This document shows, piece after piece, positions 2,307-64,000 of a stretch of DNA of 64,000 nt (positions within the stretch are counted from its first letter, which is position 1; every line of letters starts with the position of its first letter). The DNA comes from Acholoe squamosa. Lineage: Eukaryota; Annelida; Polychaeta; Phyllodocida; Polynoidae. A model generated the notes under the pieces. It was not told the origin of the DNA. It ran no database searches and saw nothing but the letters and a program-made list of their open reading frames with translations. The stretch is taken from assembly GCA_949317995.1 (NCBI GenBank), contig OX439043.1:4642501-4706500 (forward strand), written 5' to 3'. The translations under genes and the position numbers were made by a program.

Positions 2307-5300
2307 TTAGGTTACAGCAGACCTCAACCGGGGGCTGCGTCTAACGCCTTCGGTTAGCATTTTATTTTTCCCGGCTTTACGTACGGCCTTTTCTGGATCT
2401 CGCTTAGTCAAAGCGGGACCCTTCCCATACGTAATGCCTTCACTCAGCGAGACTTTCTTCCATTTCTTACGATTAGGTCGTTTCCTGGCCTTCGTCTTCT
2501 TTTTTACCATAACCTCGTCTCCCGGCGTCTTTCTCGGCCGGCCTCTAGGGCGCTTCGTCGGTACTACCACGCTCGGTCCACTAGGGACAGATACAGGTGG
2601 TTTGTAGCCGAACTCCCTCTCCGCCTCTTCGCGCCCCTTCCAGGGCCGAAGTTTTCCGACATTTGTCTTCCATTTTCTACCCGTCAGGCAGTCCTCTATC
2701 ATCACCGTGGACTCGGAGATGACACGAACGATTTTAAACGGACCTTCCCAAGGCGTTACGAGCTTCAGCTTATCCAGCGGCTCGTAGTACCTTAGTACTT
2801 TGTCCCCAACATTAAAACGAATTCGTTTAGCATTGGTGTCATAGCCCACCCTCTGCCACTTCGCACTCTTCAGCAGTTCTTTCCGAACGGCCTCGTATGC
2901 CTGTTTGAACCGGTCCCTTAATGACTCTACAAACAGCACCGTGCAGGGCGCCTCCGGGTCTATTCCAACCACTCCATACACTAAGTCGGCGGGCATTATG
3001 ATGTCCTCGCCGAACACTAGCATGTTTGGGGTGCAGTTAGTTGATGAATGGACAGTGTTGTTGTAGGCATGTACTACAAACTCGCACTGTTCATCCCAGT
3101 CATCCTGGTGGGTATTAACCAGGGGCTTTAGTACTTGTATGAGGGTTCTATTGAAGCGCTCTACCTGCCCATCCGACTGTGGTCGGTACGGGTTTGTTCG
3201 GGTCTTACAAATGGCTAGGTAATGGCACATTTCCTGCCAAAGTTCTGACTCAAACTCCCTTCCTTGGTCACTGTGCATCATAAGAGGAACACCCAAATGC
3301 AGCACCCAGCCTTTCACAAATGCCTCCGCGCATGTGGCGGCTTTGTGGTTAGGAAGGGGGAACACCCGAGTGTACTTAGTATAATAGTCGGTTACGACCA
3401 TCATACAAGTATTGTCTCGCGGCGTCGTCTTAATCCCACTGATGATGTCTATCGCTACTCGAGCAAATCTGACACCAAACAATTCCTGTGATAAGGGTTG
3501 CTTACCCAGGCCGGGTCCCGGTTTGTTTTTACAACAATCCGGGCAAGTGGCGATCCACCGGAGCAGGTCGCCTCTCATACCGGGCCAGTAGTAACGCCTT
3601 TGTAGACGCTCTATCGACCTTCTCTTACCGAAATGGCCACTCGTTTGGTGGCCGTGGCAATAATACATGATATCCCTCCTCATCGGGGCGGGTATCACTA
3701 TTTGCAACAGCCTACCGTTGGTGGGAGTTGTCTTCCACCTACATAGTATGCTGTCTCGGATCTCTAGCTCGGTCCATTGAGCCAGCAACCGCCTCGCTTC
3801 CCTATCCTCCAGGGAAACTAGAGGCCTTGCCGGTTTAATGCCTGACCGTAGGTATTCCATTATGCGCGCAGTGGTGGGGTCTGACTGTTGAAACTTCTTG
3901 ATGGTCTCCGGGGACCAATCGAGATAGCTGCATACAGCCTCCTCCCAGGGGATACGGGGGGTGGTATAATTAAATACCAGCCCGGCTACCACAGCATTGT
4001 GGGCCCCGCAGTCTTCACATGTGGCATTTTGGCACCTTCGGATAGGCCGTCTTGACAAGGCATCCGCATTGATGTGTTTAGCACCGGGTCGGTGCTCTAT
4101 TTGTTTATGCTCTAATCCGAATTCGGATAGGTGAGCTAACCAACGTCCAATCATCCCCTCGGCGTCCTTAAAGTTAAGGAGCCACCTAAGAGACGAATGG
4201 TCTGTTCTTAAAGTAAAGTCACTTCCCCAAAGGAAATGCTTGAACTTCTTCGTATACACCACCACAGCGAGGAGTTCTCGCTTGGTGGTACAATAATTTC
4301 GCTGTGTCTTGCTTAACGTGTTGCTAGCAAATGCTATTGGCACTTCGACTCCCTCTTGGACCTGAGAGAGAGCTGCCCCAATCGCATCATTGCTCGCATC
4401 GGTGTCTAAGATGAAATGTCCCTCGGGAGTGGGATATTTCAACACGGGTGTATTCCTAAATAAATCTTTTATTTTATTAAAAGACTCTTCTTGCTCGCTG
4501 GTCCATGGGAGTGGGTCCCGTGCCCTACCCGGGGTCCAGTGAGCTAAGCACTGCATGGGGAAGCTGACACGAGAGTAATTCGGTATGAAATCACGATAAT
4601 AGGAACAAAATCCTAAAAATGATCTCACCTCCTTAGCACTCGTGGGTCTTTCCCAATTTTCTACAGCTTCTAATTTTTCCGGATCCGCACTCACCCCGTT
4701 AGGAGTAATGATCCTTCCCAAGTATGTAATGGTTTTCTTAAACAAATTACATTTCTTGGGTTTAAGTTTAAGACCGTTTGATAGTATCCGGTCGAGGACT
4801 AATTGCAGATTCGCCAGGCATTCCTTGAATGACTTGCCGAACACGACCACATCATCCAAGTAAACCAGGCATTTCTTCCACAAAAGGTCACTCAGTAAGG
4901 ATTCCATCATAGCCTCGAATGTAGCGGGAGCGTTACACAATCCGAAGGGTAAGACATTATACTCGAATAGCCCCATATGACTAGAGAATGCTGTCTTCTC
5001 CTTGTCATTGGGGTGCATTGGTATTTGCCAATATCCGGACTGTAAATCCAAGGTACAGAACCATTGGTTTCCGCCCAAGCTATCTAAAGTCTCGTCTATC
5101 CTTGGTAAAGGATACGAGTTCTTCTTTGTTATACCGTTCAATTTCCGGTAGTCGACACAGAAGCGGATTGTACCGTCTTTCTTAGTAGTCATACAAACAG
5201 GGCTGGACCAGGGACTCGAGCTAGGCACGATTACCCCTAGGTCCAACTGTTTTTGTATTTGCTCTTCACAGATTAACTTCTTCTTGAGGGGAAGTCTACG

Positions 5301-6542
5301 ATACGGGATTTTAAAAGGTTTCTCGTTGCCCACATCTATGGTGTGCAACACCTTATCGGATCTACCCACCGGGCCTCCTTCCCTACCAAAAGCACCTTCG
5401 TACTTTTGTAGAAGTCTCTCTAGGCAATCCTTATCGTCCGTATTCTTTAAATCTGACTGATCAATCAGCTTTTGGAATTCTTCATCCATGGGATGCTGAC
5501 TAACTGGGTTTAGTGGTTTGTTAAATTTAGCCTCGGCGACATGTTCTACCGAACTCATCCTTCCAACACTGTCGCCTCGCCTCAAATAAACCACCGAACC
5601 ACTTCGGTTAGTTATGGGTAATACAGACCAAGCTGCATTAGCCACTAATGTATCCACTGAGTCTAACCCGATGCTTGACAAATACACCGTGTCGGGTTCG
5701 TAGACTCCAGTTTCATTCCTCTGAGCCATGGACCCGCCACAAAGGACATCGCAAGTGGTACCCCGTGGGATCTTCACCGTATGTACCACTGCTGCGACCG
5801 AAGACACCTGTCTCAATACGCATTGGACATGCAAGCCATACGGGCTCCGTATACCCATCGTACCGTCCCTCGGGTCCAAGACGGCCCCGTATAAGCTTGC
5901 AAAATCCAATCCGAGGATTCCGTCATCACTAACCTCTGCTATAGTTGGCGAAAGAACAAATTCTTTGCCTCCTATACGGATAGGCATAAACGTCCTACCA
6001 AATGTACGCATACTGCTTCCGTCGGCCGTGCAAGCATTTACCCCCGTTTTGAGGTTCTCATGGCTGCCGGCCACCGAATCGAAGAATCTTTTGGACACAC
6101 ATGAATGACTGGCTCCAGTATCCACCAAGAATTCCCCCACCCGGCCTTCCACAGATATGGGTACATACCACCGTCTCCCCCCTAAAGGCGAGGGGTTACT
6201 GGTAAACTGGTGAAAGTCTCCCGAATCACCAAGATTCAATCCGAGTCCTCTCAGGAATTCCAGACACGGATGACTTGGGGGAAGGCGTGTCCCACACACT
6301 CGAATCAACTCTTTGATCCATCCTTCCTCTCCCCTAGTGCGGCCACTCGCCCCCATATGATTGCTCCTGCACATATCAACACTAGGGTCCCTGGCCCCGG
6401 CCGAGGTGCAGGGGTGCGCACCCTCAGCCACCCGGCCTCCAGGTGTAATTGACTCGAAATCTTCCACCGGGACACCCCCGGTAGCATTTTGGCATTCGTT
6501 CCCACTCGGGGCTATGTCAGATGCCGTTGACACAACCCCCAC
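2307..6542 (-). CDS. pol: Pol polyprotein: protease, reverse transcriptase, RNase H, integrase
   Basis: The frame of 1,411 codons opens at a GTG, so it is most likely made as Gag-Pol by -1 frameshifting, not from its own start. Domains: aspartic protease with DTGAS (141-145) and ILGLD (209-213); reverse transcriptase about 425-610 with YLDD (561-564); RNase H with ILDTDAS (711-717) and TDHSS (780-784); integrase zinc finger H965/H970/C1000/C1003; catalytic D1032, D1092 and E1128 with exact D-35-E spacing; and a GPY/F-type module around WEGPFK (1265-1270). The tail is very basic and holds RPRGRPRK (1331-1338), an AT-hook-like core. No chromodomain is seen. All key catalytic residues are present and no stop interrupts the frame, so it may be functional. 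It ends with TAA at 2307-2309. Confidence 0.95.
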   Translation of the reverse strand: MGVVSTASDIAPSGNECQNATGGVPVEDFESITPGGRVAEGAHPCTSAGARDPSVDMCRSNHMGASGRTRGEEGWIKELIRVCGTRLPPSHPCLEFLRGLGLNLGDSGDFHQFTSNPSPLGGRRWYVPISVEGRVGEFLVDTGASHSCVSKRFFDSVAGSHENLKTGVNACTADGSSMRTFGRTFMPIRIGGKEFVLSPTIAEVSDDGILGLDFASLYGAVLDPRDGTMGIRSPYGLHVQCVLRQVSSVAAVVHTVKIPRGTTCDVLCGGSMAQRNETGVYEPDTVYLSSIGLDSVDTLVANAAWSVLPITNRSGSVVYLRRGDSVGRMSSVEHVAEAKFNKPLNPVSQHPMDEEFQKLIDQSDLKNTDDKDCLERLLQKYEGAFGREGGPVGRSDKVLHTIDVGNEKPFKIPYRRLPLKKKLICEEQIQKQLDLGVIVPSSSPWSSPVCMTTKKDGTIRFCVDYRKLNGITKKNSYPLPRIDETLDSLGGNQWFCTLDLQSGYWQIPMHPNDKEKTAFSSHMGLFEYNVLPFGLCNAPATFEAMMESLLSDLLWKKCLVYLDDVVVFGKSFKECLANLQLVLDRILSNGLKLKPKKCNLFKKTITYLGRIITPNGVSADPEKLEAVENWERPTSAKEVRSFLGFCSYYRDFIPNYSRVSFPMQCLAHWTPGRARDPLPWTSEQEESFNKIKDLFRNTPVLKYPTPEGHFILDTDASNDAIGAALSQVQEGVEVPIAFASNTLSKTQRNYCTTKRELLAVVVYTKKFKHFLWGSDFTLRTDHSSLRWLLNFKDAEGMIGRWLAHLSEFGLEHKQIEHRPGAKHINADALSRRPIRRCQNATCEDCGAHNAVVAGLVFNYTTPRIPWEEAVCSYLDWSPETIKKFQQSDPTTARIMEYLRSGIKPARPLVSLEDREARRLLAQWTELEIRDSILCRWKTTPTNGRLLQIVIPAPMRRDIMYYCHGHQTSGHFGKRRSIERLQRRYYWPGMRGDLLRWIATCPDCCKNKPGPGLGKQPLSQELFGVRFARVAIDIISGIKTTPRDNTCMMVVTDYYTKYTRVFPLPNHKAATCAEAFVKGWVLHLGVPLMMHSDQGREFESELWQEMCHYLAICKTRTNPYRPQSDGQVERFNRTLIQVLKPLVNTHQDDWDEQCEFVVHAYNNTVHSSTNCTPNMLVFGEDIIMPADLVYGVVGIDPEAPCTVLFVESLRDRFKQAYEAVRKELLKSAKWQRVGYDTNAKRIRFNVGDKVLRYYEPLDKLKLVTPWEGPFKIVRVISESTVMIEDCLTGRKWKTNVGKLRPWKGREEAEREFGYKPPVSVPSGPSVVVPTKRPRGRPRKTPGDEVMVKKKTKARKRPNRKKWKKVSLSEGITYGKGPALTKRDPEKAVRKAGKNKMLTEGVRRSPRLRSAVT

Positions 6543-9481
6543 TAGTTTTCCACATCTGTGGAATCCGTAGCATTCTCCCTTTCTACGCCGTCGTCTTCGG
6601 CTTCATAGAAGGCAGCCATTACCGGCTTAGTAGCGGTACATTCAGATGAGTAGTGTCCCATGCGCTGGCACCTGAAACACTTAACCGTTCGGCGATCCAC
6701 CCGGGGTCTTTGCCGATTGGCTTGGATGGCATCTGTAATTTTCTTACACATGTCTTCCAGAAGTTTGGTCATGTCCGGGGACTGAGTCTTCGCTTTGTCA
6801 GTGCTTACAGTGGGCTTGACCGCCTTCTCGACAGCCTTCGGGTCACTCTTGACCTCAGATGAAGGTCTAGAGTCCCTTTGTTTATTGAAAGATTTCCTGG
6901 GAATATACTTCCTACCTGAAGTATTCTTCCTTAATTGCATCGAACAGAAGGTGCCGTCTTCCTGTTCGATATCAATCAATTCGAAGTCGTCTGAGGGAGT
7001 ATTGACCTCAGACTGCTGGGTCACCGATGCCAGGGGTACCAAGCCGCTGGCATTAGGTATGTCCCCAGCTAACATAGCTCGCTTCTTCACGGCCATATCT
7101 ATACCATTAAATATGCCGTGTAGTGTTATGCCTTCTTTCCAGGCATCCCTCGCTGCTAATTGTTCATCTCGGTCTCTTAGACCCTTGACGAATTGTGTGA
7201 TCAAATCGTCCATATACCAGTCCTGGTTTTCAGTACCGGGTCTGGCCTTACTTAGCAGGGCATGGAGTTCCATACCGTATGCTCTGAAAGCTTCATTCGG
7301 CTTCTGTGTGCGTTTCTTAAAACGGACCATCGGGTCTTCCTTGACCATGTTGCATAACAGTCCACTAGCAGTTTCTACTAACTGCTCAAAACTCCCAACG
7401 AGGCCGTACCAGGTTCGCCATTGCTCTACAGCCATGCGACCCGGCCCGCCTTTCAGACATCTCACCAGATGTGGCTTGGCCTCGTATGGGGTCCATCCAT
7501 TACAATTCATCACATCGATGAAATCTTCAAACCACTCTTTCCATGGTCGAGTACCGTCATATTCTCTAGGAATAACGGCTACCCTTCGGGCAGAATTGTG
7601 AGCATACATCAATCTAGTGCATTGCTGTTTGCTCCATTCAATCGCCTTGGTTTCATTCAAGGTTCGATTGCCCCCTATACCACCGAAGCTCGAATTGCCC
7701 GGTGGAGGCGGTGGTGGAGGTTGTGTATACGTCCACTGTGTACCACTGTGGTTCGTATAGCTCGCACCACCCTGGTTGGGGCCGGTACCCGAGGTACCGC
7801 TATAGCCTGTGGCACCCGAAGCACCACCCCCCCCTTGCGCACCTTGGTAACCGCCGTCGGATGGCTGGTTTCCCGTTGACTGGCCGCCATCGTTCGATGG
7901 ATTCGGTTGGGTGTTGTCATTACCAGCACCCAGCCCCGGGTCGTTACTAGGATCCACATGAATGTGGAACCCACTGGTCTCCGCACTACTATCGGAAGCC
8001 TCTCTAGGGGTATAGTCCGGGTCCAGGTTGTGGACTATGGGCACTTCACTTATCCGGACTCTACTAGTTCGGCCATGCTTATCCTGGGTTCTGATGTAAA
8101 CGCCCCCTTGATCTACATTCCGCGAAGCATTATCATTTACAAAAGGATTATACTGCGGATTCTTCGGTGTAGAACAGGAGACCGGGTCGCCCTGTTTCAC
8201 GAACGTCGAGTTCGGGTTTGTATCCCTACTCGCCGGAGGGGCATGCGTTTGCTCTTGCTCCTGTAAATAACTCTCCATAGCGGACTTATTTATTGTGAGG
8301 GTAGCTACGTCTGTAGTCAGGTTTCGCTGTTCCTCCCTTAGCTGTGCGTTTTCTGCCAAGATTTCGGATCGAATCTTTTCATTTTCAGCCACAGCTCGGT
8401 TTCTTTCTTCTTGGGCGATAATTGCCTCTCGCTTAAAAGTATCCTTAAGTAGGCGGTACTTTTCACCCTTCTCTTTCTGAGACTTGTTATATTCACTGGT
8501 CTCCTTCCTGATCTCGGCTTGTTCCGAGACCATCTTGGCTTCTGTCTCAGCCTTCCGGAGTTGAAGTTTCTTAAGCTTCTCCTCCATTGCGTGCAACTCC
8601 GTTTGTAATTTATTTACATCCCGAGCCTTAGCAACCTCCTCGGCCCTAGCCTTGTCGATTGCTCTAAGTTTACTGGCTTCCTCGATTTCCAACTCAGCCA
8701 GCCTTTTTTCTTTTTCCTGTGCGTCTCTCTCCTTCCGCTTCAACCGATGGGATACGGAGGATAGACGATATTTGAGGTCAGATTCTTTTAGAATCGCCTC
8801 CTGCTCAACGGATCGTAATTTTCCGATCCGAGACTTAGCTTCCTCTTCTATTTTGGATTGGGCTAACATGAATTGTTCATGTTGCCTCTTTGCCTGTAAC
8901 TCAACCTGTTCCTTGGCTTTCAAATAGGCCTGAGTATTTTTATACCCGGGACCCATCCGACGTCCGTAGACAGACTTGCGACTGCCTCCAGGGTAAAACA
9001 TGGAGTCAGACAAGCCTTCGTCTAGAGATCGGCCTAGGTGATGCCTTTCCGAGCTTTTCGGTCCGGTACCACTAGGCTTATTTTTTGCTTTCGCGCCTGG
9101 GACTATTGCGTCCCTTTTGGTTTTGCCATCGTCGCTGTCATGATCCGACGATGTCATTAGTGGGGCTACTTCGTTTCCACCACCTGGTGCTGAACCCTGG
9201 GGGGTTGCAGTACGCTGCATAGGGCTTTGTGCAATTGGTGTACCCAAGCCGCTAGCCGAGCCTGTTGGTACCATAGGACCTAGCTGGCGTCTGCTAGTTA
9301 TAACTTGGGACCAATCGCTCAAGTCTAAAGTTGGGGGTCTTAACACACCCCTAAACCATCCGGTATCCGGTACTCCTGTTTGGGGTGTAGCCGGATACAA
9401 TTTTACGATGCCATCTCTGGTGGCATTGTCCATCAGGTCGGGTGTAGAAAAAATATTTCGTACACCCTCCTGATTAAACAT
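6542..9481 (-). CDS. gag: Gag polyprotein with long N-terminal coiled coil and CCHC zinc knuckle
   Basis: The first ATG of the frame is at 9481 (MFNQEGVRNI), giving 979 codons; the frame stays open upstream to 9628 but without ATG. From the N-terminus: a Ser/Gly/Pro-rich segment; a long charged heptad-like stretch of roughly 240 residues rich in E/K/R/L, predicted coiled coil; a Gly/Ser/Asn-rich linker and PPPPPPPG; a capsid-like part with DGTRPWKEWFEDFIDVMN and QKPNEAFRAYGMELHAL, typical of gypsy-type Gag; then a basic linker. The nucleocapsid knuckle C-FRC-QRMGH-YSSE-C has CX2CX4HX4C spacing. It would form the particle and bind genomic RNA. It is far longer than usual for the family (often 300-500 residues), and the coiled-coil extension is the extra part. 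It ends with TAG at 6544-6542. Confidence 0.88.
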   Translation of the reverse strand: MFNQEGVRNIFSTPDLMDNATRDGIVKLYPATPQTGVPDTGWFRGVLRPPTLDLSDWSQVITSRRQLGPMVPTGSASGLGTPIAQSPMQRTATPQGSAPGGGNEVAPLMTSSDHDSDDGKTKRDAIVPGAKAKNKPSGTGPKSSERHHLGRSLDEGLSDSMFYPGGSRKSVYGRRMGPGYKNTQAYLKAKEQVELQAKRQHEQFMLAQSKIEEEAKSRIGKLRSVEQEAILKESDLKYRLSSVSHRLKRKERDAQEKEKRLAELEIEEASKLRAIDKARAEEVAKARDVNKLQTELHAMEEKLKKLQLRKAETEAKMVSEQAEIRKETSEYNKSQKEKGEKYRLLKDTFKREAIIAQEERNRAVAENEKIRSEILAENAQLREEQRNLTTDVATLTINKSAMESYLQEQEQTHAPPASRDTNPNSTFVKQGDPVSCSTPKNPQYNPFVNDNASRNVDQGGVYIRTQDKHGRTSRVRISEVPIVHNLDPDYTPREASDSSAETSGFHIHVDPSNDPGLGAGNDNTQPNPSNDGGQSTGNQPSDGGYQGAQGGGGASGATGYSGTSGTGPNQGGASYTNHSGTQWTYTQPPPPPPPGNSSFGGIGGNRTLNETKAIEWSKQQCTRLMYAHNSARRVAVIPREYDGTRPWKEWFEDFIDVMNCNGWTPYEAKPHLVRCLKGGPGRMAVEQWRTWYGLVGSFEQLVETASGLLCNMVKEDPMVRFKKRTQKPNEAFRAYGMELHALLSKARPGTENQDWYMDDLITQFVKGLRDRDEQLAARDAWKEGITLHGIFNGIDMAVKKRAMLAGDIPNASGLVPLASVTQQSEVNTPSDDFELIDIEQEDGTFCSMQLRKNTSGRKYIPRKSFNKQRDSRPSSEVKSDPKAVEKAVKPTVSTDKAKTQSPDMTKLLEDMCKKITDAIQANRQRPRVDRRTVKCFRCQRMGHYSSECTATKPVMAAFYEAEDDGVERENATDSTDVEN
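6545..6551 (-). other. candidate -1 frameshift heptamer at gag-pol junction
   Basis: Read on the minus strand the sequence is G-GAA-AAC followed at once by the gag stop TAG (6544-6542). The pol frame is -1 relative to gag and is open across this point. The heptamer fits the X-XXY-YYZ layout, with GGA in place of a homopolymeric XXX, as in the GGA-type slippery site known from a mouse retrovirus. The placement directly before the stop is unusual: slippage must occur with the stop codon next in line. Confidence 0.6.
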
Positions 9482-9631
9482 TTGTTGTTGACCGGGTTTC
9501 CAGTCTAACAACAGATGCTGGGATGTGTAATCATCCTCTTCGAATCCCTCTAGCCCAGGGCTGGGGGGATCCGCTTCGGGTTTCCCGAGGCTTTCGGCCA
9601 ATGTGGCCGCGCACCACCCCCGAACCAACTG

Positions 9632-42872: not shown

Positions 42873-45800
42873 TGGCCCCAGACAATGCCCAGGGTGGGGA
42901 AGGAGGTGCAGAGAGCTTCTACTGCAAGACTGGAGCCCCTGACACTGCCCAGGGCGGGGCAGGAGGTGCAGACAGCTTCTACTGCGGGGAAGGAGCTCCT
43001 GACACTGCCCAGGATGGGGAAAGAGGTGCAGAGAGCTTCTACTGCAGGGAAGAGGCTCCTGACCATGCCCAGGGTGGGGCAGGAGGTGCATAGAGCTTCA
43101 AAAGGTTCCCCGCCAGGTTCCCCGCCGACCCCGCCAGGTTCCCCGCCTTCCCCGCCAGGTTCCCCGCCTTCCCCGCAACCCCCTCTTCCCCACAGCCCCT
43201 GGCACCTGACACTGGCCAGGGCAGGGCAGGAGGTGCAGACAGCTTCTACTGCGGGGAAGGAGCCCCTGACACTTCCCAGGGAAGGGCAGGAGGTGCAGAC
43301 AACTTCTACTGCGGGGAAGGAGCTCCTGACACTGCCCAGGATGGGGAAAGAGGTGCAGAGAGCTTCTACTGCGGGGCAGAGGCCCCAGACAAATCCCAGG
43401 GTGGGGAAGGAGGTGCAGAGAGCTTCTACTGCAGGGAAAAGGCCCCAGACAATGCCCAGGGCGGGGAAGGAGGTGCAGACAGCTTCTACTGCGGGGCAGA
43501 GGCCCCAGACAATGCCCAGGGCAGGGAAGGAGGTGCAGAGAGCTTCTACTGCAAGACTGGAGCCCCTGACACTGCCCAGGGTGGGGCAGGAGGTGCAGAC
43601 AGCTTCTACTGCGGGGAAGGAGCTCCTGACACTGCCGAGGGCGGGGAAAGAGCTGCAGAGAGCTTCTACTGCGGGGCAGAGGCCCCAGACAATGCCCAGG
43701 GTGGGGAAGGAGGTGCAGAGAGCTTCTACTGCAAGACTGGAGCCCCTGACACTGCCCAGGGCGGGGCAGGAGGTGCAGACAGCTTCTACTGCGGGGAAGG
43801 AGCTCCTGACACTGCCCAGGATGGGGAAAGAGGTGCAGAGAGCTTCTACTGCAGGGAAGAGGCTCCTGACCATGCCCAGGGTGGGGCAGGAGGTGCATAG
43901 AGCTTCAAAAGGTTACCCGCCAGGTTCCCCGCCGACCCCGCCAGGTTCCCCGCCTTCCCCGCCAGGTTCCCCGCCTTCCCCGCAACCCCCTCTTCCCCAC
44001 AGCCCCTGGCACCTGACACTGGCCAGGGCAGGGCAGGAGGTGCAGACAGCTTCTACTGCGGGGAAGGAGCCCCTGACACTTCCCAGGGAAGGGCAGGAGG
44101 TGCAGACAACTTCTACTGCGGGGAAGGAGCTCCTGACACTGCCCAGGACGGGGAAAGAGGTGCAGAGAGCTTCTACTGCGGGGCAGAGGCCCCAGACAAA
44201 TCCCAGGGCGGGGAAGGAGGTGCAGAGAGCTTCTACTGCAGGGGAGAGGCCCCAGACAATGCCCAGGGCGGGGAAGGAGGTGCAGACAGCTTCTACTGCG
44301 GGGCAGAGGCCCCAGACAATGCCCAGGGCGGGGAAGGAGGTGCAGAGAGCTTCTACTGCAAGACTGGAGCCCCTGACACTACCCAGGGTGGGGCAGGAGG
44401 TGCAGACAGCTTCTACTGCGGGGAAGGAGCTCCTGACACTGCTGAGGGTGGGGAAAGAGCTGCAGAGAGCTTCTACTGCGGGGCAGAGGCCCCAGACAAT
44501 GCCCAGGGCGGGGAAGGAGGTGCAGAGAGCTTCTACTGCAAGACTGGAGCCCCTGACACTGCCCAGGGCGGGGCAGGAGGTGCAGACAGCTTCTACTGTG
44601 GGGAAGGAGCTCCTGACACTGCCCAGGATGGGGAAAGAGGTGCAGAGAGCTTCTACTGCAGGGAAGAGGCTCCTGACCATGCCCAGGGTGGGGCAGGAGG
44701 TGCATAGAGCTTCAAAAGGTTACCCGCCAGGTTCCCCGCCGACCCCGCCAGGTTCCCCGCCTTCCCCGCCAGGTTCCCCGCCTTCCCCGCAACCCCCTCT
44801 TCCCCACAGCCCCTGGCACCTGACACTGGCCAGGGCAGGGCAGGAGGTGCAGACAGCTTCTACTGCGGGGAAGGAGCCCCTGACACTTCCAAGGGAAGGG
44901 CAGGAGGTGCAGACAACTTCTACTGCGGGGAAGGAGCTCCTGACACTGCCCAGGACGGGGAAAGAGGTGCAGAGAGCTTCTACTGCGGGGCAGAGGCCCC
45001 AGACAAATCCCAGGGCGGGGAAGGAGGTGCAGAGAGCTTTTACTGCAGGGGAGAGGCCCCAGACAATGCCCAGGGCGGGGAAGGAGGTGCAGACAGCTTC
45101 TACTGCGGGGCAGAGGCCCCAGACAAATCCCAGGGCGGGGAAGGAGGTGCAGAGAGCTTCTACTGCAGGGGAGAGGCCCCAGACAATGCCCAGGGCGGGG
45201 AAGGAGGTGCAGACAGCTTCTACTGCAAGACTGGAGCCCCTGACACTTCCCAGGGCGGGGAAAGAGGTGCAGAGAGCTTCTACTGCGGGGGAGAGGCCCC
45301 AGACAATGCCCAGGGCGGGGAAGGAGGTGCAGAGAGCTTCTACTGCGGGGGAGAGGCCCCAGACAATGCCCAGGGTGGGGAAGGAGGTGCAGAGAGCTTC
45401 TACTGCAAGACTGGAGCCCCTGACACTGCCCAGGGCGGGGCAGGAGGTGCAGACAGCTTCTACTGCGGGGAAGGAGCCCCTGACACTTCCCAGGGTGGGG
45501 AAGGAGGTGCAGACAGCTTCTACTGCGGGGCAGAGGCCCCAGACAATGCCCAGGGCGGGGAAGGAGGTGCAGAGAGCTTCTACTGCAAGACTGGAGCCCC
45601 TGACACTGCCCAGGGTGGGGCAGGAGGTGCAGACAGCTTCTACTGGGGGGAAGGAGCTCCTGACACTGCCCAGGATGGGGAAAGAGGTGCAGAGAGCTTC
45701 TACTGCGGGGAAGAGGCTCCTGACCATGCCCAGGGTGGGGCAGGAGGTGCATAGAGCTTCAATAGGTTACCCGCCAGGTTCCCCGGCGACCCCGCCAGGT

Positions 45801-46335
45801 TCTCCGGCGACCCCGCCAGGTTCCCCGCCGACCCCGCCAGGTTCCCCGCCGACCCCGCCAGGTTCCCCGCCTTCCCCGCCACGTTCCCCGCCTTCCCCGC
45901 AACCCCCTCTTCCCTGCAGCCCCTGGCACCTGACACTGGCCAGGGCAGGGCAGGAGGTGCAGACAGCTTCTACTGCGGGGAAGGAGCCCCTGACACTTCC
46001 CAGGGCGGGGAAAGAGGTGCAGAGAGCTTCTACTGCGGGGGAGAGGCCCCAGACAATGCCCAGGGCGGGGAAGGAGGTGCAGACAGCTTCTACTGCGGGG
46101 CAGAGGCCCCAGACAATGCCCAGGGCGGGGAAGGAAGTGCAGAGAGCCTCTACTGCAAGACTGGAGCCCCTGACACTGCCCAGGGCGGGGCAGGGGGTGC
46201 AGACAGCTTGTACTGCGGGGAAGGAGCCCCTGACACTTCCCAGGGTGGGGCAGGAGGTGCAGAGAGCTTCTACTGCGGGGCAGAGGCCCCAGACCATGCC
46301 CAGGGCGGGGAAGGAGGTGCAGAGAGCTTCTTCTA
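42873..46335. repeat. 60-bp GC-rich minisatellite with 807-bp higher-order units
   Basis: About 3.4 kb of a 60-bp unit (consensus GCCCAGGGCGGGGAAGGAGG, then TGCAGAGAGCTTCTACTGCG and GGGCAGAGGCCCCAGACAAT). Variant units recur in a fixed order. Each higher-order unit contains a C-rich spacer made of CGCCAGGTTCCCCGC-like 15-bp repeats. The landmark GTGCATAGAGCTTCAA occurs at about 43088, 43895, 44702 and 45749, i.e. spacings of 807, 807 and 1047 bp (807 plus four units). All periods are multiples of three, so several frames stay open for long distances on both strands. One plus-strand frame is open for 1,152 codons (42885-46343). Confidence 0.95.
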
Positions 46336-61211: not shown

Positions 61212-62183
61212 CATAGCTGAGGAAAGCTTCAACAGACCTTTACAGAGGTTATGCTATTGTGATATAGTGGATTCTATTTCATTCCTTCTACACTGATTTT
61301 GGAACATCAAGACTAAGGTAGCAGCATAATTCTATATATTCATTTGAAGACCAGGCTGTATGTAATAGAGTACCCTCAGCAGATATGCAGCAGAATTTAT
61401 CAGTTTGTGAATTGCCTAGCATAAGAATATTTTGATACACTTAATTTGTATCTAGCCAACAGTCAACTGTTTAGCAATGGACCGATTCTTGCAAACTTCA
61501 TGACTCAAATGTTGACATTACGTATTGTTTTGGCCCTTAGTCAGTATTGAATTTTAATCCAATACACTAGAAATAGAATAGGATATTGTGACCAAACTCA
61601 AACCTCTTTGTCATTTATCTCAAGGTGATTTTAACTCACAATCCGAAGGCCTAATATGGACATTGGTTCTCACTTTACTTCTGGAATCCCCACCATTCAG
61701 TGAACTAACTGCAGAAGAAAGGTAAATAAGACTCCCCCTGTTTGATTGATTGACCACTGTTTTCACCGCTTCATCGATTCATGCATGACAAAGCTGAATG
61801 GACTGTGCCAGACAGATCTATTAGACTAGATTGTGGTTAAAAAACATATTTCCATTTTGATTGTGTCTTACACCTGTGATGACAACTATTTGGAACACAG
61901 CAGTAGGGCATGGCGGGTCAGTAGATGGAGGCAAGGGCAGCGGGAAAGACAAAGACAGTTCATTATTACGAAACAATGGCACAAGGCTAACACCGGTGGA
62001 GGACTGCTGCGGCGGGATATGCTGGTTTATATGCACCTCGGGTTACTACACCATATTTGAAGGATATCGACACAAGTATGAAGTGATACTGAACACAGAA
62101 AGGATAGGCTAAAGTTATAACTTACTATCTGAACTCAGTTAGAGGAATCCAAACTTTTTCCAACACGTTGTAGAGAAAATTTT
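60920..62183. other. non-coding DNA upstream of the LINE ORF1
   Basis: Includes a GA microsatellite. From about 61860 the sequence becomes more GC- and CpG-rich and may be part of the LINE 5' untranslated region. No supported gene. Confidence 0.5.
61153..61212. repeat. (AG)n microsatellite with two interruptions
   Basis: An AG/GA dinucleotide run of about 60 bp. Frames through it read only Leu/Ser or Arg/Glu and are artefacts. Confidence 0.95.
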
Positions 62184-62196
62184 CCAAGATGGCGCT
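62184..62196 (+). promoter_or_regulatory. YY1-like motif upstream of LINE ORF1
   Basis: CCAAGATGGCGCT resembles the YY1 site (AAGATGGCGGC) that positions transcription start in mammalian L1 5' untranslated regions. It lies 255 bp upstream of the favoured ORF1 start. YY1 is conserved in animals; its use here is an inference. Confidence 0.35.
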
Positions 62197-62438
62197 GCCC
62201 ATGTCGACAACGTACAAACACAATTTGTAATCATTCACACCTCCACCCAAAGGATTCTTCTATACATAAAACTGTTACCTGCAAATTCTATAAAACCTTA
62301 TTAGTGAGATAGTCACTATTTATTAGACTTTTGAAACACAAACATCTAATACGAAAATTGATGTTAAACCGTGCTACTAGAAATACGCATCGCTCCACAA
62401 GTTCTACGCCTGACTCTATAGTGTCAAGGTCATACAAC

Positions 62439-63863
62439 ATGGCAGCTTCCGCTCCAAACAAAAACATCAATTTGCAAGGCGAAAATAATGACTCTGAAGA
62501 AGACGTAACTAACTATTTGCCTGCCCTGAAGTACAAAGCACCTCCTAAGGCTATAATTGATAAAATCAATGAGCTTGATGATAGACTCAAAGCCCAGGAA
62601 AGTATCTCAAGGCGAACTATCAACCTACTCAACGGCATGGAAATGCGAATGTTTGGTCCCAAAGGAATACCCCAAGACAAGACGGCTACCATCCCCGAGC
62701 TGGAAAGCAAGTTAAATGTACACGATACTACACTTTCACAACATAGTGATAACATTGAAAAAAACATCACTGATATATCCAAGCTAAGTGAAGTATCGGA
62801 TAAGCATACTGATCAATTCGCCAAAGCTGATGGGGAAAGGAAAAAGAGAATCCTGATCATTGAAGGACTAGATGAAGACCGTCCCGGTAGTCTACGAGAC
62901 ACCTTAGACCAACTAACAAATGATCTGGGCCTAGACTTCAATAACTCTGTCGCTGAAGTACTCTACAGAAGAGGGAAAAAGCAAACCCCTAATGAAAATC
63001 AGAAGAGGAACCCTAACTACAGACCTCGTAAGAGACCAGTGGTAATTATCTTCTCATCTGCCCATTATAAGATACAAATCTTCTCTAAAATCAAAAATCT
63101 GCAAGGAAACAACACATGGAAGGGTGTACACCTGACCGATGACGTGAGTCCCGAAGAAAAACTCATGCAAAAAAACCTTCGATCCATACAAGCCCTGGCA
63201 AAAAGCAAAGACATTGAATGCACTGTTAAAGGTACACAAATTATTATCCAAGGACACCCCTATGCATACAAAGACATTGGAAACCTACCCATGGACCTGT
63301 CGTTGAAGAATGCTAAAACTGTCGAAACACCTGATGGTGTGGCGTTCCAAGGTGAACATTCAATCTACTCAAACCTCTACAAATGTGATATTCAATTTGA
63401 AGGTCATTCATATGACTCACTGGAGAGGGCCTACCAAGCCAAAAAAGCCTTAGTTTGTAACCAAGTACATATATTAAGAAGAGTAAATATGGCAAAAACA
63501 CCCCTAGACAGTATGTATGCTGCCAAGTCTTGCAAATTAAATAATGAATGGTATGATGAGGATGAAACCGTGATGAAGAGACTACTAGAAATAAAATTCT
63601 CTCAACCTGCTATGCTACACGAGCTAACCCAAACACAGGGAAAATACTTATATGAGGCCACCCAAAACAAGACATATGGATCTGGGTTTCATCTGGGCCA
63701 GAAGGACATCATAACCATCCAAAATGTAGCAAAAAATGAACATGAGTGCGCAAACAAACTGGGCGAAATGCTGATGAACCTAAGATATCAACACACGAAT
63801 GAGAGACCCCTTCCAACAAGTGAAGAAATCAGACTAAATATTGCGACAGCCCAAGGGCCATAA
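62439..63863 (+). CDS. LINE ORF1-like protein with C-terminal NADAR (YbiA/DUF1768-like) domain
   Basis: The start chosen is ATG 62439 (ACAACATGG, a strong Kozak context), giving 474 codons; an in-frame ATG at 62361 has a weak context. Residues about 35-130 are heptad-like (KAIIDKINELDDRLKAQES...). About 136-272 is RRM-like (KRILIIEGLDEDRPGSLRDTL; RPVVIIFSSAHYKIQIFSKI) followed by HLTDDVSPEEKLMQKNLRSI and TQIIIQGHPY, the layout of L1/Tx1-type ORF1 proteins, which bind RNA and chaperone nucleic acids. About 304-450 matches the NADAR fold: YSNLYKCDIQFEGHSYDSLE, then ERAYQAKKA, YAAKSCKL, MKRLLEIKFSQPAMLHEL, TYGSGFHLG and ANKLGEMLMNLR. NADAR proteins cleave N-glycosidic bonds or remove ADP-ribose. 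The conserved Glu (ERAYQ) is present, but the usual D-x-x-W-G motif reads N-K-T-Y-G, so activity is uncertain. It ends with TAA at 63861-63863. Confidence 0.8.
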   Translation: MAASAPNKNINLQGENNDSEEDVTNYLPALKYKAPPKAIIDKINELDDRLKAQESISRRTINLLNGMEMRMFGPKGIPQDKTATIPELESKLNVHDTTLSQHSDNIEKNITDISKLSEVSDKHTDQFAKADGERKKRILIIEGLDEDRPGSLRDTLDQLTNDLGLDFNNSVAEVLYRRGKKQTPNENQKRNPNYRPRKRPVVIIFSSAHYKIQIFSKIKNLQGNNTWKGVHLTDDVSPEEKLMQKNLRSIQALAKSKDIECTVKGTQIIIQGHPYAYKDIGNLPMDLSLKNAKTVETPDGVAFQGEHSIYSNLYKCDIQFEGHSYDSLERAYQAKKALVCNQVHILRRVNMAKTPLDSMYAAKSCKLNNEWYDEDETVMKRLLEIKFSQPAMLHELTQTQGKYLYEATQNKTYGSGFHLGQKDIITIQNVAKNEHECANKLGEMLMNLRYQHTNERPLPTSEEIRLNIATAQGP

Positions 63864-64000
63864 GCACTGACCGAACCAATGAACTCACTTTCATCTTTCC
63901 TCTGTATATTTGCTTCTTTAAATCTGTTTTTCAGATATGCATATATATTGATTACATTTTCGCATCTTTCTTTCTGTACTTATCCATTATATTGTACTAC
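63864..64000 (+). other. ORF1-ORF2 spacer of the LINE, to window edge
   Basis: AT-rich, with no frame of note; the LINE presumably continues beyond 64000. Confidence 0.4.

Follow-up and report, generated by a model that had tools for sequence, protein, structure and literature searches.

A stretch of 64,000 nucleotides from the polychaete Acholoe squamosa (GCA_949317995.1, contig OX439043.1, positions 4,642,501–4,706,500; hereafter the window) contains, close to its right-hand end, a 474-aa open reading frame (ORF) at 62439–63863 on the forward strand. A first-pass annotation, made from the letters, read this ORF as a LINE ORF1 protein fused to a C-terminal NADAR domain. This raises the question of whether the fusion is genuine and, if so, what a NADAR domain would do for a retrotransposon. 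That the locus is a NADAR-carrying LINE is as good as certain; its features are as follows, with residues in the numbering of the 474-aa ORF.

61969–62360 (+): 5′ untranslated region of the LINE, from the start of similarity shared by five of six young copies
62361–63863 (+): ORF1, probably 500 aa from a conserved upstream ATG; the 474-aa version starts at the internal ATG at 62439
62439–62828 (+): N-terminal coiled-coil-like part, residues 1–130; weak profile matches; median dN/dS 0.159
62829–63347 (+): RRM/CTD-like, putative RNA-binding part, residues 131–303; weak match to 2ykp/2yko (E 0.011); median dN/dS 0.064
63354–63788 (+): NADAR domain, residues 306–450; PF08719 E 3.1e-15, 8bau E 2.7e-12; median dN/dS 0.069 (residues 304–450)
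63423–63425 (+): Glu329, aligned with E43 of the P. nicotianae NADAR; E in 37/37 non-host rows
63444–63446 (+): Lys336, aligned with K50; K in 30, R in 5 and M in 2 of 37 rows
63549–63551 (+): Trp371, aligned with W89; W in 36/37 rows
63654–63656 (+): Glu406, aligned with E125, the Glu marking the YbiA subfamily; E in 37/37 rows
63864–64000 (+): start of the 419-nt spacer between ORF1 and ORF2, the latter at 64283–67153 in window numbering

ORF1 and its NADAR domain

The 474-aa ORF matches the Pfam NADAR family (PF08719) with an E-value of 3.1e-15 and a score of 57.2 bits (cut-off 35.1) over residues 306–450 and profile positions 9–160 of 163, which rules out a chance match. Together with an endonuclease–reverse transcriptase (EN-RT) ORF2 beginning 419 nt further on, this bears out the annotated fusion. 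A single-sequence search of a structure database with ORF1 found E. coli YbiA (2b3w, E 3.8e-5), and a profile built from seven related ORF1s matched the NADAR protein 8bau (E 2.7e-12) and YbiA (E 1.2e-8) among solved structures. Residue numbering at all eight positions tested fits 8bau being the P. nicotianae NADAR of PMC11543638.

The N-terminal two thirds had been described as having the coiled-coil and RRM-like layout of L1/Tx1-type ORF1 proteins, a description that is weakly supported. The seven-ORF1 profile yielded a weak match to LINE-1 ORF1p across the coiled coil–RRM–CTD region (2ykp/2yko, E 0.011, profile positions 105–278), and weak matches to coiled-coil proteins in the N-terminal part, but the Pfam L1-ORF1 models gave no match in the window ORF1. 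The start assigned at 62439 needs revising. An ATG lying 26 codons upstream is common to the relatives, so that ORF1 probably comprises 500 aa from 62361, with the ATG at 62439 internal. A search of the protein databases returned few relatives (2, 2 and 4 matches), none carrying a name, and no second ORF1 copy was found inside the 64-kb window, where the best candidate was a 26-residue match at E 1.1.

Elsewhere in the window, a Gypsy-like LTR retrotransposon occupies 2307–9628 (−), with a 1411-aa Pol (protease, RT, RNase H and integrase) and a 1028-aa Gag-like ORF bearing a zinc knuckle, and a 603-aa open frame at 3–1811 (−) has a C2H2-like end by eye and no Pfam match. A GC-rich minisatellite at 42875–46331, built of 60-bp units with a 180-bp higher order, is open in several frames; its 1152-aa ORF and two Pfam matches are most likely repeat artefacts.

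The element, its copies and its clade

The DNA to the right of position 64000, to which the first-pass annotation had looked for an RT-encoding ORF, contains one: an intact ORF2 of 956 aa at contig positions 4706783–4709653 (L031:783–3653), with endonuclease (PF14529, Exo_endo_phos_2, 1.3e-6) and reverse transcriptase (PF00078, RVT_1, 1.9e-42) domains. It is followed by AATAAA and eight consecutive A, as seen in the window copy, the only one compared here. At the 5′ side, five of six young copies (L001–L005) share a start at ~61969, within a few bases, beyond which their flanks differ; in the sixth (L006) the similarity starts later, just before the internal ATG. The shared 5′ start and the 3′ end after ORF2 give an element of ~5.7 kb. 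Inspection by eye of the flanks of the window copy revealed no target-site duplication. The six ORF1 copies, including that of the window, are 99–100% identical in protein and 99.16–99.80% in DNA, and the element has therefore moved recently. The window ORF is thus the ORF1 of a young, full-length, recently active non-LTR retrotransposon.

A search of the 1.48-Gb genome with ORF1 gave 3487 first-look candidates, of which 90 matches, including the window, were scored; their identities lie mostly near 99, at 77–90 and at 61–64%. With at least 90 ORF1 matches across the genome, a lone insertion was rejected. Among 48 ORF2 copies scored from 28341 candidates, a listed NADAR-ORF1 lies upstream on the same strand in at least 23, and in at least 20 of the 38 whose match begins at residue 1 or 2, these pairing counts being lower bounds since only the scored matches were paired and some ORF2 copies are 5′-truncated. 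The gap between the two, from match end to match start, is 259–495 nt in 22 of the 23 pairs and 3.7 kb in the other.

The Tx1 type proposed for this element was rejected, as its RT scores equally against human L1 and R2 (59 bits each); the genome does hold a Tx1-like NADAR family, but it is that of locus L058. In a small comparison set the nearest RTs are those of L111 (50% identity) and L110 (48%), in both of which an extra ORF sits between ORF1 and ORF2. The extra ORF of L110 matches a Pfam GDSL lipase/acylhydrolase family (Lipase_GDSL_2) at E 5.1e-6, below the family cut-off, and that of L111 is SGNH-like by eye. The RT motif of the window ORF2 is one that we take to fit the CR1/jockey group. 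Because of this motif, and because the nearest RTs accompany esterase-like ORFs as in the ORF1s of CR1 and L2, the element probably belongs to the CR1 group (CR1/jockey), as judged from human L1 and R2 and the RTs of other NADAR loci. Esterase ORF1s have been described from both CR1 and L2 elements (PMC4120745).

Selection on the domain

A dN/dS estimate for the NADAR part across copies had been suggested at the outset, and was obtained by the Nei–Gojobori method from pairs with dS 0.1–0.8, which are not independent of one another. The sample comprised the 39 intact copies (ORF of at least 470 aa) among 50 ORF1 loci, L014 being left out for its odd tail. The median for NADAR is 0.069 (160 pairs), close to that of the RRM/CTD part (0.064, 165 pairs), while the coiled-coil part and the ORF1 tail have medians of 0.159 (165 pairs) and 0.142 (196 pairs), respectively. 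The NADAR domain is thus kept under strong purifying selection in the window family. With this, and with its presence in other genome copies, the domain is no lone chance insertion, a possibility that the first-pass annotation had left standing.

Outside this family the data are sparser. The 50 other NADAR loci yield just three pairs with dS of 0.1–0.8, whose dN/dS values are 0.043, 0.052 and 0.082, and the near-identical Tx1-like and L057 groups give 0.12–1.39 at dS below 0.08, which is too small to judge selection. The six young window-family copies, summed over 15 pairs, show 39 non-synonymous against 8 synonymous differences in the coiled coil (residues 1–130), and 5 against 31 in NADAR; the coiled-coil excess may rest on few changes in one copy, one change being counted in many pairs.

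NADAR-ORF1s in other LINEs of the genome

A search of the genome with the NADAR family gave 3224 first-look candidates, the best 150 of which were scored; all are above the cut-off, and 94 of these 150 lie in frames open for 400 codons or more. The same search gave matches in three of 14 control genomes, all three bacterial. The two best matches in A. squamosa (L052 and L053) occupy ORFs of just 171 and 227 aa, and resemble stand-alone NADAR genes of the host.

At twelve further NADAR-ORF1 loci, picked by eye among the best 150 (eight, then four), the downstream DNA was inspected, and in every case it contains endonuclease or RT sequence. Ten match the RT profile, those of L061 and L111 (the latter downstream of L087) partially or in pieces; L063 and L064 have the endonuclease only, interrupted in L064. 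The RT of L058 is L1/Tx1-like (254 bits to human L1 against 71 to R2). That of L057 is of a third kind, scoring 92 bits to L1 and 72 to R2 and being 25–32% identical to the other RTs; by its motif it is presumably RTE-X-like. The remaining eight and that of the window are 32–55% identical to one another. As read from these sequences (loci L057–L064 and L105–L111), the RTs that follow NADAR-ORF1s in this one genome are of at least three divergent kinds: L1/Tx1-like, the L057 kind, and CR1-like.

Several of these loci have further domains or ORFs. The 729-aa ORF1 of L057 has, by eye, an SGNH-esterase-like tail following NADAR within the same ORF, for which Pfam gives SASA at only E 0.067. Seven loci (L059, L060, L062, L063, L109, L110 and L111) have an extra ORF, or pieces of one, between the NADAR-ORF1 and the EN-RT ORF, making them three-ORF LINEs; in several the extra ORF is SGNH/GDSL-like by eye, the sole Pfam match being that in L110, below its cut-off.

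How the domain came to be so distributed was approached with a tree, in which L058 and the short proteins P0005 and P0007 group with host and stand-alone NADARs (support 100/98), and the split among the remaining NADARs is weak (74/71). A single clade of all 37 non-host domains in the alignment described below is allowed (AU p 0.123), as it is with L058, P0005 and P0007 removed (p 0.231). LINE lineages have been proposed to swap entire ORF1s (PMC4120745). As between one capture, several captures, and exchange of ORF1s, neither one capture nor several is claimed here.

These findings bear on the simplest alternative, that NADAR is a passenger fused by chance in one insertion and has no function. 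Beyond the caution of the first-pass annotation nothing speaks for it, and it is refuted by the many genome copies, the low dN/dS, and the occurrence in several LINE lineages, leaving it hardly credible.

Active-site residues

The NADAR domains were compared in an alignment of 43 rows, from which two host NADARs, YbiA, 8bau, and P0006 and P0008 (short stand-alone proteins) were set aside, leaving 37 non-host rows. For this, 53 NADAR loci were read, one place twice, and of 108 domains eight that were partial were removed, the others being thinned at 80% identity. Own-genome domains make up 31 of the 37 rows. Of these, 28 were picked by eye from the best 150 by NADAR score, which favours conserved residues, and three (the window, L032 and L045 families) came from the ORF1 search instead; endonuclease or RT sequence was observed downstream for 14 of the 31, these being the rows checked. 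The domains are mostly 21–33% identical to the window NADAR.

In P. nicotianae numbering, the window copy keeps E43, K50, W89 and E125, and is changed at R79 (to K), R93 (to D) and W133 (to Y); the D130 position is a gap in one alignment and N in another. Across the 37 non-host rows, E43 and E125 are Glu without exception, W89 is Trp in 36, and K50 is Lys in 30, Arg in five and Met in two. Met is found in the L032 family, which has at least 18 sampled copies, and in P0001. Both retain the two Glu, and their NADARs may be inactive or altered in activity.

The weight of these residues can be gauged from mutants of the E. coli C7 NADAR, in the parts of PMC11543638 that describe them. Changes at E88, K95 and D171 (corresponding to E43, K50 and E125) abolished rescue from DarT1, K95R was active in vitro while antitoxin rescue was lost, and E88A had a limited effect in vitro. 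E173, a Glu aligned by sequence throughout the superfamily, proved dispensable, Asp doing its work. In the light of these mutants, the conserved residues count in favour of catalytic activity of the window NADAR but are no proof of it.

An alternative is that NADAR serves as a binding or structural module, binding ADP-ribose, the ends of NAD-capped RNA or some other ligand, or assisting ORF1p multimerisation, with no need of catalysis. The substitution of several ADP-ribose contacts in the window lineage would suit this, as would the loss of the Lys in the L032 family and P0001, and accessory ORF1 domains (PHD, esterase) are variable and thought to have been shuffled among CR1 and L2, according to the sections of PMC4120745 on these elements. 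Structural use alone would not, however, predict two Glu that are invariant in 37/37 rows at mostly 21–33% identity to the window, and we consider a purely binding role doubtful. A catalytic NADAR domain that the element requires for retrotransposition is a good deal more probable, and can be put forward with some confidence.

Proposed function

If the domain is catalytic, its substrate has to be considered. NADARs undo the ADP-ribosylation of guanine in DNA (PMC11543638) and, among the hydrolase families, were alone in reversing that of guanosine in RNA (PMC11833690); those of animal RNA viruses have been proposed to counter host ADP-ribosylation (PMC9503650). In the mechanism favoured here, the coiled-coil, putatively RNA-binding, L1-like ORF1p would hold NADAR within the ribonucleoprotein, where it would strip ADP-ribose from guanine of the element RNA, or of the DNA copied from it, so that no host ADP-ribosyltransferase would halt reverse transcription. 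The combination of an RNA-binding-type ORF1p, the invariant Glu, and the low dN/dS favours an enzyme whose target is the RNA or cDNA of the element itself. Guanine-ADP-ribose on the element's own nucleic acid is a candidate substrate, whose chances fall slightly short of even. The reading as a whole, of a CR1/jockey-group LINE ORF1p with an added C-terminal NADAR predicted to act as an ADP-ribosyl N-glycosidase that cleans element RNA and cDNA, is evenly balanced between right and wrong.

The domain could instead be an active N-glycosidase that works on a small molecule, destroying an alarm signal derived from ADP-ribose (such as cyclic ADP-ribose) or modulating NAD metabolism. Phage NADARs have been proposed to process soluble ADP-ribose derivatives (PMC9503650), and E. 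coli YbiA works on riboflavin intermediates (PMC11543638, PMC9303266). Against this, the domain is part of an RNA-binding-type ORF1p, which should remain with the element RNA, a link that a soluble signal does not need, and the NADARs of eukaryotic RNA viruses have been argued to target mainly macromolecular ADP-ribosylation (PMC9503650). A small-molecule substrate is therefore held to be distinctly unlikely. Still less probable is a role in processing of the element RNA, through 5′-end, cap or spliced-leader handling, akin to that of SNA-3 in nematode trans-splicing. SNA-3 is essential for this process and has three NADAR domains, with changes to the homologues of the YbiA active site impairing it (PMC9303266), and processing of RNA intermediates has been suggested in the Ectocarpus study (PMC12477816). 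Nothing specific speaks against such a role, and five copies share one 5′ start.

Removal of ADP-ribose from the element's own nucleic acid, the role preferred above, fits the published work on NADARs, from which it is inferred. A matching host enzyme was sought with the Scabin-like guanine ADP-ribosyltransferase family of Pfam (PF22596), which has no match in the genome; it has none in the 14 control genomes either, making the result uninformative. The Pfam Egg_lysin family and a molluscan haemocyanin domain likewise found no match in the genome, again with silent controls. Should the domain be an active de-ADP-ribosylase, it would represent a retrotransposon counter-defence like that proposed for animal RNA viruses, and would point to nucleic-acid ADP-ribosylation as a restriction mechanism in animals. 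The presence of NADAR in distantly related elements of one genome is suggestive of an arms race between elements and host. A wider proposal is that several unrelated LINE lineages keep a competent NADAR because the host ADP-ribosylates guanine in their RNA or nascent cDNA, and that this would give a first glimpse of an animal genome defence so far unrecognised, with the counter-measure having been captured or exchanged repeatedly in parallel to invertebrate RNA viruses; this is offered tentatively, and the chances are rather against it. The physiological roles of animal NADARs have been called unclear in print (PMC11125620), and the many intact NADAR-ORF1s in a single genome make the question testable.

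Comparison with known systems

Within the NADAR superfamily, the window domain falls in the YbiA subfamily, having a whole-domain match above the cut-off, and E, K and E at the positions of E43, K50 and E125. Compared with the P. nicotianae var. parasitica and E. coli C7 NADARs as presented in PMC11543638, it keeps the E43, K50, W89 and E125 positions, but differs at those of R79, R93, D130 and W133, and those proteins are stand-alone or linked to DarT1. The rest of ORF1 may resemble the type II (L1-type) ORF1p outlined in PMC4120745 in its general layout of coiled coil, RRM and CTD, with the weak 2ykp/2yko match at E 0.011, and is unlike it in having the extra C-terminal NADAR and no match to the Pfam L1-ORF1 models.

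That NADAR is not a standard LINE component, as the first-pass annotation had it, is out of date. In Crassostrea gigas, several families of Tx1 LINEs have been reported to carry NADAR in ORF1, with a suggested role in RNA processing, and Gypsy elements of the brown alga Ectocarpus to carry it at the N-terminus of Pol (PMC12477816, Genome Biology 2025). Among the open-access papers listed for NADAR with LINEs or retrotransposons, no other paper on NADAR in LINEs was recognised, and the word 'YbiA' was not found in a bivalve transposon paper (PMC10294476). The C. gigas elements are alike in carrying a NADAR (YbiA family) domain in an animal LINE ORF1. They differ in that the window RT is not L1/Tx1-like, and that NADAR-ORF1s here also precede CR1-like and third-kind RTs; analysis of selection and copies is given here, and the passages on the C. 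gigas families hold none. The Ectocarpus Gypsy elements are likewise retrotransposons that have captured a NADAR, but are LTR elements of a brown alga with the domain in another position. The NADAR-carrying animal RNA viruses, which include nidoviruses, Hepe-like viruses, and picornaviruses of annelids and bivalves (PMC9503650), are similarly RNA parasites of invertebrates, though viruses, and are compared by description only. NADAR in the ORF1 of Tx1 LINEs (C. gigas) and in Gypsy Pol (Ectocarpus) is thus already known from the relevant passages of PMC12477816; new here is a NADAR-ORF1 in a LINE outside Tx1, accompanied by evidence from selection and active-site residues, and extending over several kinds of LINE in one genome.
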